Source: Archivesica marissinica
Taxonomy: Eukaryota; Mollusca; Bivalvia; Venerida; Vesicomyidae
Length of the DNA: 64,000 bases
Reading direction: 5' to 3'
NCBI GenBank assembly: GCA_014843695.1
Contig: CM026404.1
Coordinates: 58,787,311 to 58,851,310 of the forward strand
The notes beneath the pieces are model-generated. The model worked only from the letters and a program-made list of their open reading frames with translations, did not search any database and had not been told where the DNA came from. The position numbers and the translations under genes were made by a program. This document shows positions 7,919 to 29,365 of this stretch, piece after piece (position 1 is the stretch's first letter; every line of letters begins with the position of its first letter).

Positions 7919-8208
7919 TGTGTGTTTTATGTTTATTTATCGTCGCTACAAGTTGCCCATATGAGCGACCCCTCCTGAAGAGATTAGTAATTTTAGATTT
8001 TTGGAGGATAGTGCAATGATACAGAGAGAGACCCATTCCAGTTCTCCTCTGGTTCTTTTAGGTGCACGGTGTACAGCACCGACACGGGACCTAGGTTTAC
8101 AGTCCCATCTGAAAGACTGTTAATTTTATTAGGGTCAGACGGGAGATCGAACCTGCGATCCCATAGCAGTCCAACGTGTTAACCACTGGACTAAATATCC
8201 GTCTGTCA
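7919..8208 (-). mobile_element. SINE family A
   Basis: Minus-strand copy with a small deletion in the anticodon region of the tRNA-like head. It is followed within 40 bp by the 34-bp minisatellite. Confidence 0.85.
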
Positions 8209-9867: not shown

Positions 9868-10160
9868 TGACGGATCTGTAGTCCAGTGCTAACACGTTGG
9901 ACTAGTAATCCAGGGATCGCAGGTTCGATCCCCCGTCTGACCCTAATACAATTAACAGTCTTTCAGATGGGACGTTAAACCGAAGTATCGTGTCGGTGAT
10001 GTACACTGTGCACGTAAAAGAACCAGAGGAGACTCTAGAATGGGTGTCTGTCTGTATCATTGCACTATCATCCATACATCTAAAATGACTAATCTCTTCT
10101 GGAGGCGTCGCTCATATGGGCAACTGGTAGCGACGTTAAATAAACGAAAAACACACACGA
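9868..10160 (+). mobile_element. SINE family A
   Basis: Full-length plus-strand copy, a good reference for the family: gacggatctgtagtccagt, B box gcaggttcgatccc, body ctttcagatgggacgttaaa, tail ggtagcgacgttaaataaac. Confidence 0.88.
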
Positions 10161-20289: not shown

Positions 20290-22880
20290 ATGATGTAATG
20301 CGTATGGACATACATGGAAAATAATGACAATGTCATGATGGATTTTAGAATATGCAAAACATGATCATGACTGTATTAAGAGTGTAGGGAGTATTCAACT
20401 GGTAACTCATATATCCTAAACAAGTGAATTACGAAGGAATAAAGCTCCATGAATATATTTCCTAAAGTTAACCAGCTCTAGGGAATTGTCACATTGAAAT
20501 ATTTGCAATAATTTGAACATACTTGGTCGATTAGAATATAAACGTTTAATATATTTTTTTCTTAATGTACTATACACCTCACATTTAAACATGAAATGAA
20601 ACTCATCTTCCACGTTGTTTGTATTACACAATAAACATAACCTTTCGTTTTAATCAATACGGTTTCTACCATATCTGCCAGTTTCAATCCGTAAGTTGTG
20701 CGCTGATATCCTCAATTTTGTAAATGCAATTGTTAATTTTCTGCTTAGTATTATATCTAAGTACGATTCGTAACCAAAATTAATCTTTACATTTTTATAT
20801 ATTATAAGTGCCTTATTTATTCGAAGATCAGTTTGTGAAGTCTGCAGAAAATCATCTATAATTCTTTGCTTAAATTCAGAAATAAATTGTGTATGGTTGA
20901 TGACATATATACAAAAAGCCAAATTTACTTAGCAATTCCCTAACTCTGGACAACCAATTCTGTTTGTCAGTTACTAAATCATATAGACACGTCTGTAACG
21001 TCGACTTAATAACTATAGTTTCCATTGTAACTATTTTTAACCAATATTTTACAACTCTTACATATATACAATGGGTATCTTCCAAGTTCATAATATACAG
21101 CTACATTACTAGTTGATTGCTTAACACCAAGAACTAACTTGCAGAATTTCAAGTGCAATGTCTCTAAATGTTTAGTGTAAAATGGATGATACTAGAGCAT
21201 CGAAGAGCTGGAGAGCGGTTTTTGGTTTTGTCTCGTGTTTACGTAGATTAGCTGTTAGTATGTTCATAGCTTTTTGGCCTTTGCCATGGAGTTTTTGTGA
21301 ATTTAAATTGAGATTACCGGTATAGTTAAGTGTAACACCAACGTAGTTAAAGTCATTGACTACCTCGACGGCATCTCCCCGATACAACCATTGCTCTCCT
21401 GTCTTTAGACCACCCCGTTTACGGAACACCATTATCTCGACTTTAAAACATTAACTTCAAGGCCCCATTTGTCACAATACATACTTAGATTATTCAATGT
21501 ATTTTGCAGGTCAACTGGTGTTAAGCCAATAAAAACCATGTCATCCGCGAATAGTTATAAAATCAAACATATGTCATTAATATCAATGCCACTATTAATC
21601 GTGTCCTGTAAGTTGTCAATGTTTCATATCAATAAAGGAACAGTATAATCTATTGTTCTTGTTTAATATGTGTTCAATTAAAGAATGCAAACTAAAAATT
21701 GCATCTACTGTCGAACGACCCTTACCAAATCCAAATTGTGCATCGGAAATAATAGTATTGTTTTCACACCAGTTTGTAATGCGACTATTTAATATGCAAG
21801 TAAATAATTTACCAAAGTTACTTAATAGGGTAATGCCTCGATAATTGTTTGCGTCATCGTTGTCACCTATTATGTATACAGGTACAATAAAACCCTTTGT
21901 CCAGCTTTCTGGGAAATTGACGGAATTTAAAATATTAAAAATATCAATGATGTGGCCAGATAAAATATCGCCCGTTTCTAAGAAATATTCGTTTAAAAAA
22001 TTGTCATCAGACGTGGCTTTATTTCGCTTAAGAGATTTGATTGCATCTTTTACCTCAGTGTAAGTAATAGGTAGATCTAAATCCTTAAATATGATATTTG
22101 ATGCATTGAAATCGTTTGTTTCATTAAATTCTTCAAAATGTTTGAAGAAAGCATCAGACGAAATATTAGCACTTTTCTTATTAGTTGATTTCCTAAAATG
22201 CATCCAGAACTAGCTGAATTATTGAAATAAGTATAATTTCCGCAAATATCATCGTGCAGACGACCATTTGCTATACGTAGTATGGTAGCCTTGCACAAGT
22301 CGAGTAATTTGTTACCATGTGAGTTACTCCCATTGTCTTGATTAGCGCGCATTAACATATTATCAGGTAGATAGTTATCATCATCCAGATCAGCGATATA
22401 CATGTCGGCATCAATGTAATCCTTTTTGCATGAGACCCTAGCATTGTAGTCGCCGGAGACCAGAACCTTACCCATATAGTCATACAGATAAATATCATTT
22501 TGCATTAGTTCAAACAGATCCGCATCGATAAGATTTGTAATTGGAGAGGTATCTCCCCACATATATACAGCAGCAAAATATACATCAGACTTATATCACA
22601 TTTTAACCAGATTATTGTGTCATGTACATTTTTCAATATGGAAATACCGTCTTTAAGAACATCTCTACAATACATGACAATACCACCGCTATTGCGCCTG
22701 GCATTGCGGTGTCTATGCTTTCTATAACAGTTAAAGCAGTGGTAATCGTCTAACTCTATATCACTAGTTTTACATGTCCATGATTCTAGCAACACAAGTA
22801 TGTCATGTTCAGTCAATAATTTTACAAAGTCTGAATGTCCGCACTTACTAGAAGTAAGGCCATTACAGTTCTAAACTAAA
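20290..22880 (-). pseudogene. LINE ORF2 pseudogene (endonuclease + reverse transcriptase)
   Basis: Minus-strand remains in order: endonuclease (LLESWT block near 22790; VSGDYNARV near 22450), RT (NNYRGITLLSNFGKL near 21840; AQFGFGKGRSTVDAI near 21730; FADDMVF at about 21525-21545), then a C-terminal region to 20416 with a Cys/His pair (CNTN..EDEFHFMFKC). The ORF is broken by several frameshifts and stops. The RT segment between the FID motif and FADD is deleted: sequence runs from FIDM almost directly to the region before FADD. It is a Jockey-superclade-like non-LTR element as judged from motif spacing; the exact clade is uncertain. Confidence 0.8.
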
Positions 22881-23979: not shown

Positions 23980-24683
23980 TGTTTACTAATTTACATAGTG
24001 TACATGACACATTTGCAATTCACTGAATTTACAGTTTCTTCGACGATTATGTTGTAAACAGAATCTTATATTCGTGACCATTTGTTATTGAATTTATTTA
24101 ACTTGTCTTCTAAAAACGATAACAACTCGTTGGCTTGCTTTTATAGATTTTAGAAGATTGGTTAAATAAATTCAATAGCCAATTACAACTCACATACTAT
24201 TTATCTCATATAATTGGAAACTGTTCGTTTAAGATGACACGCAGTGTGCTGATCATATTGTAATGGTGCTTAACAGATCCCCATTAACTATTATGTCAGC
24301 AAGAGTTCTAATGAGACTGATGTCAATAGTCATTATGAACTACAGTCAAACCTGTCTTAAGCAGCCAGCCGAGGGAATCACCGAAAGTAGCTGCTTAGCA
24401 TGGGTGGCAGGGAAAATGGAGAGTAAAACAGCATATTGGGAATCTGGAAACTACATTAGGCAACATATATACGTATTCGCTTCAACGTTATCAACACTAT
24501 ATTTTGCCAGTAAAAACTTATTTTGCGAAGCTTATTTTGCATATTATTAGTATATTTCTCAACACCATTCAGCTTACTAAATCGGTGTCTTACATAGCTC
24601 TGTGCATACATTATGTCATTATGTTGAACACACTAAAATAGTTTAACTTTCGTCAACAGTATGTAATCACAGCACGTGCATGT
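23980..24683. other. unassigned stretch
   Basis: Contains a short fragment (24345-24420, ctacagtcaaacctgtctta) of the type seen at DNA-transposon ends. No upstream transporter exon could be identified. Confidence 0.35.
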
Positions 24684-25516
24684 TATGGTATTACAGAACC
24701 TTTAACTTCTCTCCTAACAGTATGGTATTACAGAACCTTTAACTTCTCTCCTAACAGTATGGTATTATAGAACCTTTAACTTCTCTCCTAACAGTATGGT
24801 ATTACAGAACCTTTAACTTCTCTCCTAACAGTATGGTATTATAGAACCTTTAACTTCTCTCCTAACAGTATGGTATTATAGAACCTTTAACTTCTCTCCT
24901 AACAGTATGGTATTACAGAACCTTTAACTTCTCTCCTAACAGTATGGTATCACAGAACCTTTAACTTCTCTCCTAACAGTATGGTATTACAGAACCTTTA
25001 ACTTCTCTCCTAACAGTATGGTATTACAGAACCTTTAACTTCTCTCCTAACAGTATGGTATTACAGAACCGTTAACTTCTCTCCTAACAGTATGGTATTA
25101 CAGAACCGTTAACTTCTCTCCTAGCAGTATGGTATTACAGAACCTTTAACTTCTCTCCTAACAGTATGGTATTACAGAACCTTTAACTTCTCTCCTAACA
25201 GTATGGTATTACAGAACCTTTAACTTCTCTCCTAACAGTATGGTATACATATAACTTTAACTTCTCTCCTAACAGTATGGTATCACATATTTAACTTTAA
25301 CTTCTCTCCTAACAGTATGGTATCACATATTTAACTTTAACTTCTCTCCTAACAGTATGGTATACATATTTAACTTTAACTTCTCTCCTAACAGTATGGT
25401 ATCACATATTTAACATTAACTTCTCTCCTAACAGTATGGTATCAGCATATTTAACTTTAACTTCTCTCCTAACAGTATGGTATCAGCATATTTAACTTTA
25501 ACTTCTCTCCTAACAG
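24684..25516 (+). repeat. 22-unit array of copied 3' splice sites
   Basis: Each unit is tatggtatta followed by cagaaccttt and aacttctctcctaacag (37 bp distally, 39-41 bp proximally). ctaacag (ctagcag once) ends units at 24720, 24757, 24794, 24831, 24868, 24905, 24942, 24979, 25016, 25053, 25090, 25127, 25164, 25201, 25238, 25275, 25315, 25355, 25394, 25434, 25475 and 25516. The last one is the inferred acceptor of the transporter exon, and tatggtatcagc is shared between the two nearest units and the exon start. Every unit therefore carries a pyrimidine tract, a branch-like ttaac/ctaac and AG. Confidence 0.93.
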
Positions 25517-25727
25517 TATGGTATCAGCGGACCTTTCTGGTATGCCGCAGGGGCCACTATTCAGATACTGTTGTTTGCCATGGTTTCGGTCCAATTGAAG
25601 ATCCGAGCACCTGGAGCCAAGACGTTCCTGCAAGTGATTCGAGCACGATACGGTTATAGAACTCACAAGGTGTTCGTCATATATGCACTTATGACAAATA
25701 TTATTGTTACTGCTAACTCTATGACAG
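25517..25727 (+). CDS. DUR3-like sodium:solute symporter, exon 1 of those found
   Basis: Encodes 70 codons plus one base (phase 1 end) of an SLC5/SSF transporter related to the urea-proton symporter DUR3. Recognisable blocks are YGISGPFWYAAGATIQ (start of a membrane helix), LKIRAPGAKTFLQVIRARYG (cytosolic loop between helices) and a second helix ending NIIVTANSMTG. The acceptor is the last AG of the splice-site array (ctctcctaacag) and the donor is ATGACAG|gtaagc. The start was placed at TAT because YGISGPFW is what I recall at this position in the family. Homologues have roughly 80-90 residues before this point, so at least one upstream exon is missing. DUR3 proteins import urea with H+ at the plasma membrane in plants and fungi; the substrate of animal homologues is inferred. 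Confidence 0.88.
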
Positions 25728-26278: not shown

Positions 26279-26392
26279 AAGAGCTCGGACATCATTGTCA
26301 TCGGGCGAATGTAAATATATGTAATCATTGGTTTGAGTTTTGATTCTTACGCTCTCTTACAGCTTCATGTTTGAACTATAGCTTTGATGCTG

Positions 26393-26682
26393 TATGTTTT
26401 ACGTTTATTTATCGTCGCTACCGGTTGCTCATATGAACGACGCCTCTTGAAGGGATTAGTCATTTTAGATTTTTGGAGGATAGTGCAATGATACAGACAG
26501 ACACCCATTCCAGAGTCTCCTCTGGTTCGTTTACGTACATGGTGTACAGCACTGACACGAGACCTCGGTTTAAAGTCCCATCTGAAAGACCATTAATTTT
26601 ATTAGGGTCAGACGGGGGATCGAACGTGCGATCACTGGATTACCAGTCCAGCGTGTTAACCACTGAACAACAGATCCGTATA
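26393..26682 (-). mobile_element. SINE family A
   Basis: Full-length minus-strand copy from the tail (ttttacgtttatttatcgtc) to the head (acggatctgttgttcagtgg). Confidence 0.86.
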
Positions 26683-27326: not shown

Positions 27327-27621
27327 ACAGACGAATCTGTAGTCCAGTGGTTAACAGGCTTGACTTGTAATACAGGGATCGCAGGTTCGATCCCCGTATG
27401 ACCCTAATAAGATTAACAATCTTTCAGATGGGATTTTAAACCGAAGTCTGGTATCGGTGCTGTACGCCGTGCACGTAAAAAGAAACAGAGTGACTCTGGA
27501 ATGGGTCCATGTCTGTATCATTGCACTATCTTCCAAAAATCTAAAATGAATAATCTCTTCAGGAGGCGTCGCTCATATGGGCAACCGGTAGCAACGATAG
27601 ATACACGTAAAACACACACAT
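27327..27621 (+). mobile_element. SINE family A
   Basis: Full-length plus-strand copy starting cagacgaatctgtagtccag. Together with the copy at 26393 it forms an inverted pair inside one intron. Confidence 0.86.
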
Positions 27622-27806: not shown

Positions 27807-28019
27807 GTGGGTCAGCGGTATTATCTGGGCTAACGAAGGATATGGGTACAGAGTATGCGGCGATCTTGATGACTGCCGTAATAGGGACTTATACTTGCAT
27901 TGGTGGACTAGGGGCTACATTCTATGTCTCTTTCTTCAACACGATGATGATTATGATTATGATGCTCGTGTTTGTCGTGCGGGTGTATGACAACTCAGGA
28001 AATGCTGAAAACCCTCTCG
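27807..28019 (+). CDS. DUR3-like sodium:solute symporter, exon 2 of those found
   Basis: Bounded by ttattgcag| and AACCCTCTCG|gtatgt; phases 1 and 1, 213 bp. It encodes the GGSAVLSGLTKDMGTEYA loop, the helix AAILMTAVIGTYTCIGGLGATFY, and a further hydrophobic methionine-rich helix ending FVVRVYDNSGNAENPLG. The GG.GA.F/Y..FFN pattern is typical of SSF transporters around the central helices. The last 37 bp of this exon plus the donor are repeated four more times directly downstream. Confidence 0.9.
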
Positions 28020-28336
28020 GTATGTACATATCTATATGTGTGTAGAGTGGGTCATGCCTGTGTATGACAACTCAGGAAATACTAAACACCCTCTCCGTAT
28101 GTATATATCTATATATGTGTAGAGTAGGTCATGCCTGTGTATGACAACTCAGGAAATACTGAAAACCCTCTTGATATGTACATATCTATATGTGTGTAGA
28201 GTGGGCCATGCCTGTGTATGACAACTCTGGAAATACTGAAAACCGTCTCGGTATGTACATATCTATATGTGTGTAGAGTAGGTCATGCCTGTGTATGACA
28301 ACTCAGGAAATACTGAAAACCCTCTTGATATGTACA
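27983..28336 (+). repeat. five 77-bp units copying an exon end and its 5' splice site
   Basis: Units start (gtatgacaactc) at 27985, 28062, 28139, 28216 and 28293, exactly 77 bp apart. Unit 1 is the genuine 3' end of the exon plus donor ctcg|gtatgtaca. Units 2 and 4 keep GTATGT; units 3 and 5 have ttgatatgt, which removes the GT. The unit length is not a multiple of three. Confidence 0.95.
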
Positions 28337-29365
28337 TATCTTAATATACATAGAATATAATATGTCGGTGTATGACGACCGCAGAAATAATATTAATCAT
28401 AACATAACTCTCTTGGCGTGTGTATATATCCAGGTTGGATTACTAGTACAATTCAAAAACTCATTTAATAAAATATGGTGTGAAATCTGCAATCATCCTA
28501 TATATATTATATGACACTTACACGATGCTTATATACTTTATACTGAGATTAATAACGTCCCCAATAGCCCATTAAGATATGTCAATGTACTATGATGATA
28601 TATGACTTATATAAGAAACGAGAACTATGGTCAATTATTTGAATTCTTGAGAAAAGTCATATTCTAAAGAGTAAAAATCACACAGATTTGTGTGACAACA
28701 TAACCGTTAGTTGTTAATGTTAGTCTATTCAGATGGTTGCGTGTGCTATGGAATATTCGTTAAAGGCCTGCAGTTTGACCCCGTCCAATTGTAAAGATTT
28801 ATACTTTACTACCTGTTACATGTGATTAGTGGCTTGTATCAACAATGTAGCAGTACATTCAGTATAATTTGGCGTATGTAGGTATTTTCTAACGGTTAAT
28901 ATGCACGATCACTCTGTGAGCTGAGAATTAGTCAAAATGAGGCCCTGACAATTTAAGTAAACGTATATTATTGATTGTAAAGAAAATTGATAGTTATGAG
29001 TATTCAAACTACATAATCCAGATCAGCCCAGGGACATAGATTACATGTTATGTAGGTGCCTCATCAGCCGTAGCGTAATCACTGAGACTGATAATTTGTA
29101 TGCATGTATATAATATGTATGTATTTATATGAATAAACTATATGTGTTCGTTATATGGTAACCTTCATACTTCATTTAATTATATATCTACAGTATTATT
29201 CGCAAGTTTTCTGTTATATTTTAAATATTTCTCTGTGTCAGTGTGTGTTTACCGATATTGATGCTACATAATAATCACAGTGAATGCTATGAGTACATGT
29301 ATAATATTATAATTATAATCTCTTGAACATACGAGTATTACACATATTCTGCCGATTTCTACAAG
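28337..29365. other. intronic stretch without recognised features
   Basis: AT-rich intron sequence between the donor array and the small ORF. Confidence 0.4.

Follow-up and report, generated by a model that had tools for sequence, protein, structure and literature searches.

A probable mirage-type minisatellite carrying 22 tandem acceptors at the start of a coding exon of a DUR3-like transporter gene from the clam Archivesica marissinica

The closest described relatives of the structure reported here are the mirages of amphioxus. These are tandem duplications across an intron-exon boundary, found at either exon end and carrying splice signals in many of their copies, in the genes Adh3, PGBD5, troponin C and the globins BflGb6 and BflGb9; their unit number differs between haplotypes and their edges escape homogenisation (PMC3087553; PMC3902484). 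Reported for them are units of 10-160 bp, BflGb6 haplotypes with 6 and 3 units, and RT-PCR results suggesting that regular splicing is undisturbed (PMC3087553). In human genes of segmental duplications, internal tandem repeats at exon-intron boundaries can alter splicing; their units are about 30 bp long, with 4 repeats on average, and were studied as a source of new introns and exon changes (PMC2812944).

Here we describe a tandem array of acceptors in the clam Archivesica marissinica. It lies within a stretch of 64,000 nucleotides (the window; C19:58787311-58851310 of the 1.54-Gb genome), to which all coordinates without a prefix refer. Our preferred reading, to which we give a probability of roughly 0.7, is that the array is a minisatellite of the mirage type seated on an intron-exon junction of a DUR3-like gene and a neutral by-product of minisatellite turnover, that the exon-proximal acceptor is the one used, and that its likeness to an array in a paralogue arose by gene conversion.

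The array spans 24684-25516 on the + strand and consists of 22 head-to-tail units of 37-41 bp, each of which ends in an acceptor. Tandem Repeats Finder reports it at 24684-25524 with a period of 37, 22.2 copies and 96% matches, and a unit script gives sixteen units of 37 bp, one of 39 bp, three of 40 bp and two of 41 bp. The sixteen 37-bp units come first (24684-25275, + strand; the sixteenth is of a different type), and the six units of 39-41 bp adjoin the exon (25276-25516, + strand), the last of them closing with the native acceptor. The repeat finder and the script thus agree with a first-pass annotation of this DNA, which had proposed 22 tandem 3' splice sites ending at a coding exon. Acceptors of the form CAG|TATGGTAT number 22 by script when the native one at 25516|25517 is counted in, and the last CAG is the coding exon's own acceptor, by which the exon is entered in phase 0. 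The elements that the annotation had ascribed to each unit (TTAAC, a pyrimidine tract and the first bases of the exon) were all recovered: TTAAC is present in 22/22 units, the acceptor string CTTCTCTCCTAACAG is exact in 21/22, the remaining unit having CTAGCAG, and TATGGTAT opens every unit. Splice signals are therefore carried by the copies themselves, with AG and tract in 22/22, as in mirages. The decoys are also very close to the native site, being identical to it from -20 to +3 in 18 of 21 cases and from -17 to +8 in 20 of 21.

Each unit combines about 20 bp of exon start with about 23 bp of intron end, a composition seen best in the unit of the paralogue described below. In the 37-bp units the intron part is shorter by 6 bp, while ACCTTT, the 3' part of the exon-derived stretch, is retained. 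The 12-bp match to the exon noted in the annotation is the better-preserved portion of that stretch. The annotation had noted that the match to the exon is longer in the two nearest units, and indeed both read TATGGTATCAGC. It had also stated that similarity to the exon drops with distance; this is so for the first 12 bp only and does not apply to the distal 37-bp units, in which ACCTTT is kept. A decayed extra unit, TTTAACTTTCGTCAACAG|TATGTAATCACAGCA, can be recognised upstream at about 24642-24674 on the + strand, where the local alignment score is 34, a value not reached by any of 2000 stretches drawn at random from the window. Homogenised inner units are in this way flanked by divergent edges, namely the decayed unit on one side and the divergent 39-41 bp units on the exon side, which is another trait of mirages. 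The unit types are compatible with growth in more than one wave, as had been suggested.

The array seems to belong to this place in the genome. All 21 exact copies of the 23-mer CTTCTCTCCTAACAGTATGGTAT in the 1.54 Gb lie inside the array, and a reversed control pattern was not found at all; as every genomic copy sits in the array, we rule out an origin by chance. When the genome was searched with the DNA of the array, two places matched: the array itself and a second one, on the same strand and 113 kb downstream (both first-look candidates were scored). A dispersed satellite family was considered and rejected on the same grounds, the 23-mer being limited to the array and a diverged array appearing, among the two candidates scored, only at the paralogue's acceptor. 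The annotation itself had held that a satellite unit common throughout the genome would speak against its reading, and the unit is found only here and, in diverged form, at the paralogue. Since the units reach across the exon-intron boundary into the coding exon, with the last copy continuous with the exon, the sequence supports the annotation's proposal that the array derives from the exon's own acceptor.

The exon that follows the array (25517-25727, + strand, phase 0) contributes its first 20 bp to the unit and encodes YGISGPFWYAAGATIQILLFAMVSVQLKIRAPGAKTFLQVIRARYG...NSMTG. Its product, YGISGPFWYAAGATIQ..., is 94% identical to its best match, a protein of Mactra antiquata that reads ...ASKYGISG... 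across this place. Seven exon regions on the + strand of the window match proteins of Argopecten, Elysia and Mactra, whose relatives carry PF00474, and over its wider extent the gene matches proteins from animals that bear the name urea-proton symporter DUR3-like. An NCBIfam scan of the 71-aa exon alone returned no family, so the gene is named from its homologues; by similarity over the exons found, we consider it a DUR3-like urea/proton symporter with putative transport activity. The preceding exon, which ends in ASK|GTATGT, was located at C19:58784159-58784284, about 3 kb before the window begins, and the intron with the array at its end is accordingly about 28.5 kb long and of phase 0. The start of the exon at 25517 is well supported by homology. 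YGISG is conserved among the homologous proteins. Several protein fragments (among P0002-P0011) run into YGISG with no second in-frame copy just upstream, an observation on protein sequence to which we give no weight. The 28.5-kb intron also holds, at 21616-22209 on the - strand, an open frame that by eye resembles a LINE-type reverse transcriptase. An interspersed repeat of about 290 bp lies at 1546-1837, 7919-8206, 9869-10157, 26391-26679 and 27327-27618, its copies being 88-91% identical to one in locus L018.

The same gene carries a second array, at a donor. The next exon (27807-28019, + strand) has its end repeated in an array at 27983-28341 on the + strand, with 4.7 copies of a 77-bp unit in which the exon's final 37 bp and the donor are followed by about 40 bp of intron. 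The donor sequence GTATGT is kept in three of the five copies and ATATGT stands in the other two; both decoy donors with GTATGT lead to a stop. One gene thus bears arrays at both boundary types, again as described for mirages.

A protein search with the acceptor exon gave 12 matches in the genome, of which 10 loci were judged; L029, a second and partial view of the place of L021, and L030, a short partial match, were left out. In L026 and L027, two remote DUR3-related paralogues on C6, the homologous acceptor carries an unrelated array with a unit of about 56-62 bp, in which 5 and 12 acceptors, respectively, were matched by pattern with the native one counted in. No array spans this acceptor in L021-L025 or L028; L023, L024 and L025 are near-identical copies, and in L021 the nearest such feature is an array within the intron, 164 bp upstream of the acceptor. 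Arrays at this acceptor were therefore found in 4/10 judged loci (the transporter gene of the window, its paralogue 113 kb downstream, L026 and L027), with two unrelated units.

Arrays of this kind are common in the genome and not peculiar to the transporter gene. We sampled exon ends from two other families, SNF and myosin. Among 60 exon ends from 30 of the 95 SNF matches, arrays of at least three copies span five, three of them at acceptors (L044, L050, L064) and two at donors (L041, L061). The myosin sample (20 of 74 matches, picked by eye against near-identical copies, with 400-bp flanks and 40 exon ends) has three, all at donors (L072, L075, L083). Pooled, 8 of 100 sampled exon ends have a spanning array as judged by eye, with the degenerate L061 (73-76% matches) and L072 counted; a few of these ends may not be splice sites, as they were taken from profile matches. 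Arrays near the exon that do not span it were not counted (L042, L046, L051, L054, L057, L074, L076, L079, L080 and the start side of L083), nor were L068 and the doubtful L071. L068 has a two-copy acceptor duplication of about 47 bp on the start side of a myosin exon, in which one may perhaps see an array of this type at its outset or in decay. The array of L044 (C13:42898463-42898786, - strand, SNF family) exceeds the transporter array in size, with 37 exact copies of CTTGCAG|GTTGTGTATTTC, mostly 39 bp apart and the last at the exon, and extends nearly to the edge of the locus. By eye, its 39-bp unit is open in the frame of the exon, so that some of its decoys might add 13 residues each.

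We sought an enrichment of arrays at exon boundaries in the SNF sample and in the window and saw no sign of it. Of the 100,893 bases surrounding the SNF exons, 28.8% belong to minisatellites (period at least 10, copy number at least 2.5). Exon ends are spanned less often than this, and we conclude that there is no enrichment at boundaries. Within the window, arrays contain 2 of the transporter gene's 14 exon ends, the ends of exons 4-8 being approximate, versus 8.5% of 3000 random positions.

The array 113 kb downstream belongs to a second DUR3-like gene, in which the four exons within the DNA examined have open frames. The homologous exon (L017:6422-6632) differs at 36 of 211 nt. It is preceded by an array at L017:5520-6421 with 20 decoys and the native site, 21 acceptors in all, in units of 43 bp (one of 42), and the exon/intron junction and the acceptor involved are the same as in the first array. 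Over -20 to +3, 13 of the 20 decoys are identical to the native site. The first units are diverged and the array has a 4-unit period, with a mean identity of 0.97 at lag 4 versus 0.951 at lag 1. Much of the 5.1-kb intron before this exon (L017:1531-5311) is occupied by two more minisatellites, one of 37 bp x 47 and one of 48 bp x 43.

The two genes are well separated at synonymous sites, with dN 0.07 and dS 0.78 over the whole exon and pN 0.065 and pS 0.738 over the preceding one. Within the exon, synonymous sites are near saturation in the two parts beside codons 30-46 (pS 0.774 and 0.735), whereas codons 30-46 themselves have no change at 15.3 synonymous sites. Codons 1-8 have one change at 4.7 such sites. 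A 51-base identical run, 25604-25654 against the exon of L017, was reached in only 15 of 20000 shuffles of the mismatches; it is probably a gene-conversion tract amid saturated synonymous divergence.

The likeness of the two arrays could be inherited, a shared array predating the gene duplication and being held by purifying selection on splice signals. The common junction fits this, as does the intron's last 17 nt, a core near-invariant within each array (21/22 units in the first, 19/20 in the second) and identical between them at 16 of 17 sites amid saturated synonymous sites; selection could also explain such a core. However, splice-signal selection does not account for codons 30-46, which lie deep in the exon and are free of synonymous change between saturated neighbours, and conversion does. 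Moreover, the unit sets are distinct (37-41 bp in the first array, 43 bp with the 4-unit period in the second), which shows that each has grown recently and independently. For these reasons we regard an inherited array as unlikely. Gene conversion between the paralogues is the best and simplest account of the likeness, a reading drawn from one exon, with constraint as the alternative.

What the decoys would do if used bears on function. The last acceptor gives an exon of 211 nt, and the decoys give exons of 252-1007 nt. The first-pass annotation had argued that most unit spacings are not multiples of three and that decoy use would usually shift the frame. The spacings are as stated (1/22 is divisible by three), but it is the summed offset that decides, and by this measure 6 of 21 decoys keep the frame. 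With the phase taken from the preceding exon, all 21 decoy products, the six in frame among them, run into a stop codon within the extended exon, and decoys could therefore only lower output; the same is true of the products of the paralogue's decoys, 20/20 of which have a stop. The idea that the array might act as a splice-accuracy buffer is left without support by these stops, and that of a splicing device finds none either, given like arrays at 8% of the exon ends that we sampled from two further families. Neutrality, which was among the options listed in the annotation, fits best.

A regulatory version of decoy use can still be formulated. The decoys would compete with the native acceptor and each of their products would be destroyed by nonsense-mediated decay, so that the amount of symporter would depend on the number of units or on spliceosome state. 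The universal stops, the acceptor core kept in nearly all units and the recurrence of arrays at this acceptor in four of ten paralogous loci are what such a rheostat would have. However, stops are expected regardless, from the TAA within CCTAACAG and from frame shifts, recent homogenisation likewise keeps the cores alike, and boundary arrays are common in unrelated genes with no enrichment over the intron background. The recurrence figure is the main point against a plainly neutral reading, since it is higher than the sampled 8 of 100 and could hint at something favouring arrays at this acceptor; yet the loci are related pairs, and the independent array events are therefore few. We thus consider the rheostat improbable, about as much so as an inherited array. 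One may go further and propose that the arrays are in use, with decoy splicing and mRNA decay at the DUR3 acceptor tuning transporter output, unit number serving as a fast-mutating dial, and the spliceosome of this genome routinely separating dozens of locally identical sites by position alone; we hold this to be slightly less probable still. A regulatory role of the decoys is thus unlikely and unsupported, and we do not favour it. Mis-assembly, lastly, might have created the array or its unit number, tandem arrays being hard to assemble. Against this, the units differ by ordered substitutions and indels, the second array has its 4-unit period, the flanking frames are open and conserved on both sides, and like arrays recur at many loci. 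An artefact is for us very improbable, though the exact unit number is uncertain.

The neutral mirage-type minisatellite that we prefer could have arisen as follows. Birth and growth of minisatellites in introns would be very active in this genome, some arrays would start on a boundary, and those leaving one exon edge intact would survive. The transporter array would be tolerated because the coding sequence stays intact from the exon-adjoining copy onward and this copy is the one that the spliceosome would mostly use. A last acceptor would have the advantage under exon definition and through signals within the exon, and it is probably by these means, the regular exon being shorter than any decoy-extended one, that the choice is made here. 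Such decoy products as arise would be rare and removed by nonsense-mediated decay. As the frames are open and conserved, correctly spliced mRNA is presumably made, and from the gene's sequence we infer that the last acceptor is the one used.

Among known arrangements of neighbouring acceptors, NAGNAG sites lie 3 nt apart and have one branch point and tract in common. They resemble the clam array in that neighbouring acceptors compete. In the clam, each unit has its own TTAAC, tract and AG and sites follow at 37-43 nt; we therefore rejected NAGNAG as an identity for the transporter array, its acceptors being 37-41 nt apart. Laboratory duplications of splice sites, reportedly made by Lang and Spritz in 1983 and by Reed and Maniatis in 1986, asked which of identical tandem acceptors is used. 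Those constructs were engineered and had few copies, whereas the clam offers 22 copies in a natural gene. An acceptor model that scores -20 to +3 must rate 18 of the 21 decoys equal to the true site, since the sequences are identical. Correct splicing of the gene would then mean that the site is chosen by its position (exon definition, order) or by sequence deeper in the exon, and a question usually posed with engineered constructs becomes answerable from the RNA of a natural gene. The frequency among sampled exon ends suggests that the genome holds many further cases.

The human boundary repeats are likewise minisatellites at exon-intron boundaries, but they are not near-identical acceptor arrays at a conserved junction. 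With the amphioxus mirages the clam array has in common boundary-spanning units, splice signals in the copies, occurrence at either exon end and divergent edges. Normal splicing and length instability have been reported for the amphioxus mirages, while the clam array is known from the sequence of one assembly. No report of such splice-site arrays in a mollusc was found in the literature searched, whose coverage was partial, and to that extent we regard the array as a genuine case of a known type from a phylum new to it. Mirages would in this way extend from lancelets to a mollusc, with a bearing on how introns are gained and on the prediction of genes where minisatellites abound. What sets the clam apart from amphioxus is the scale: 22 and 21 acceptors in units of 37-43 bp at two paralogues, 37 exact acceptors at another gene, and 8/100 sampled exon ends spanned by arrays.
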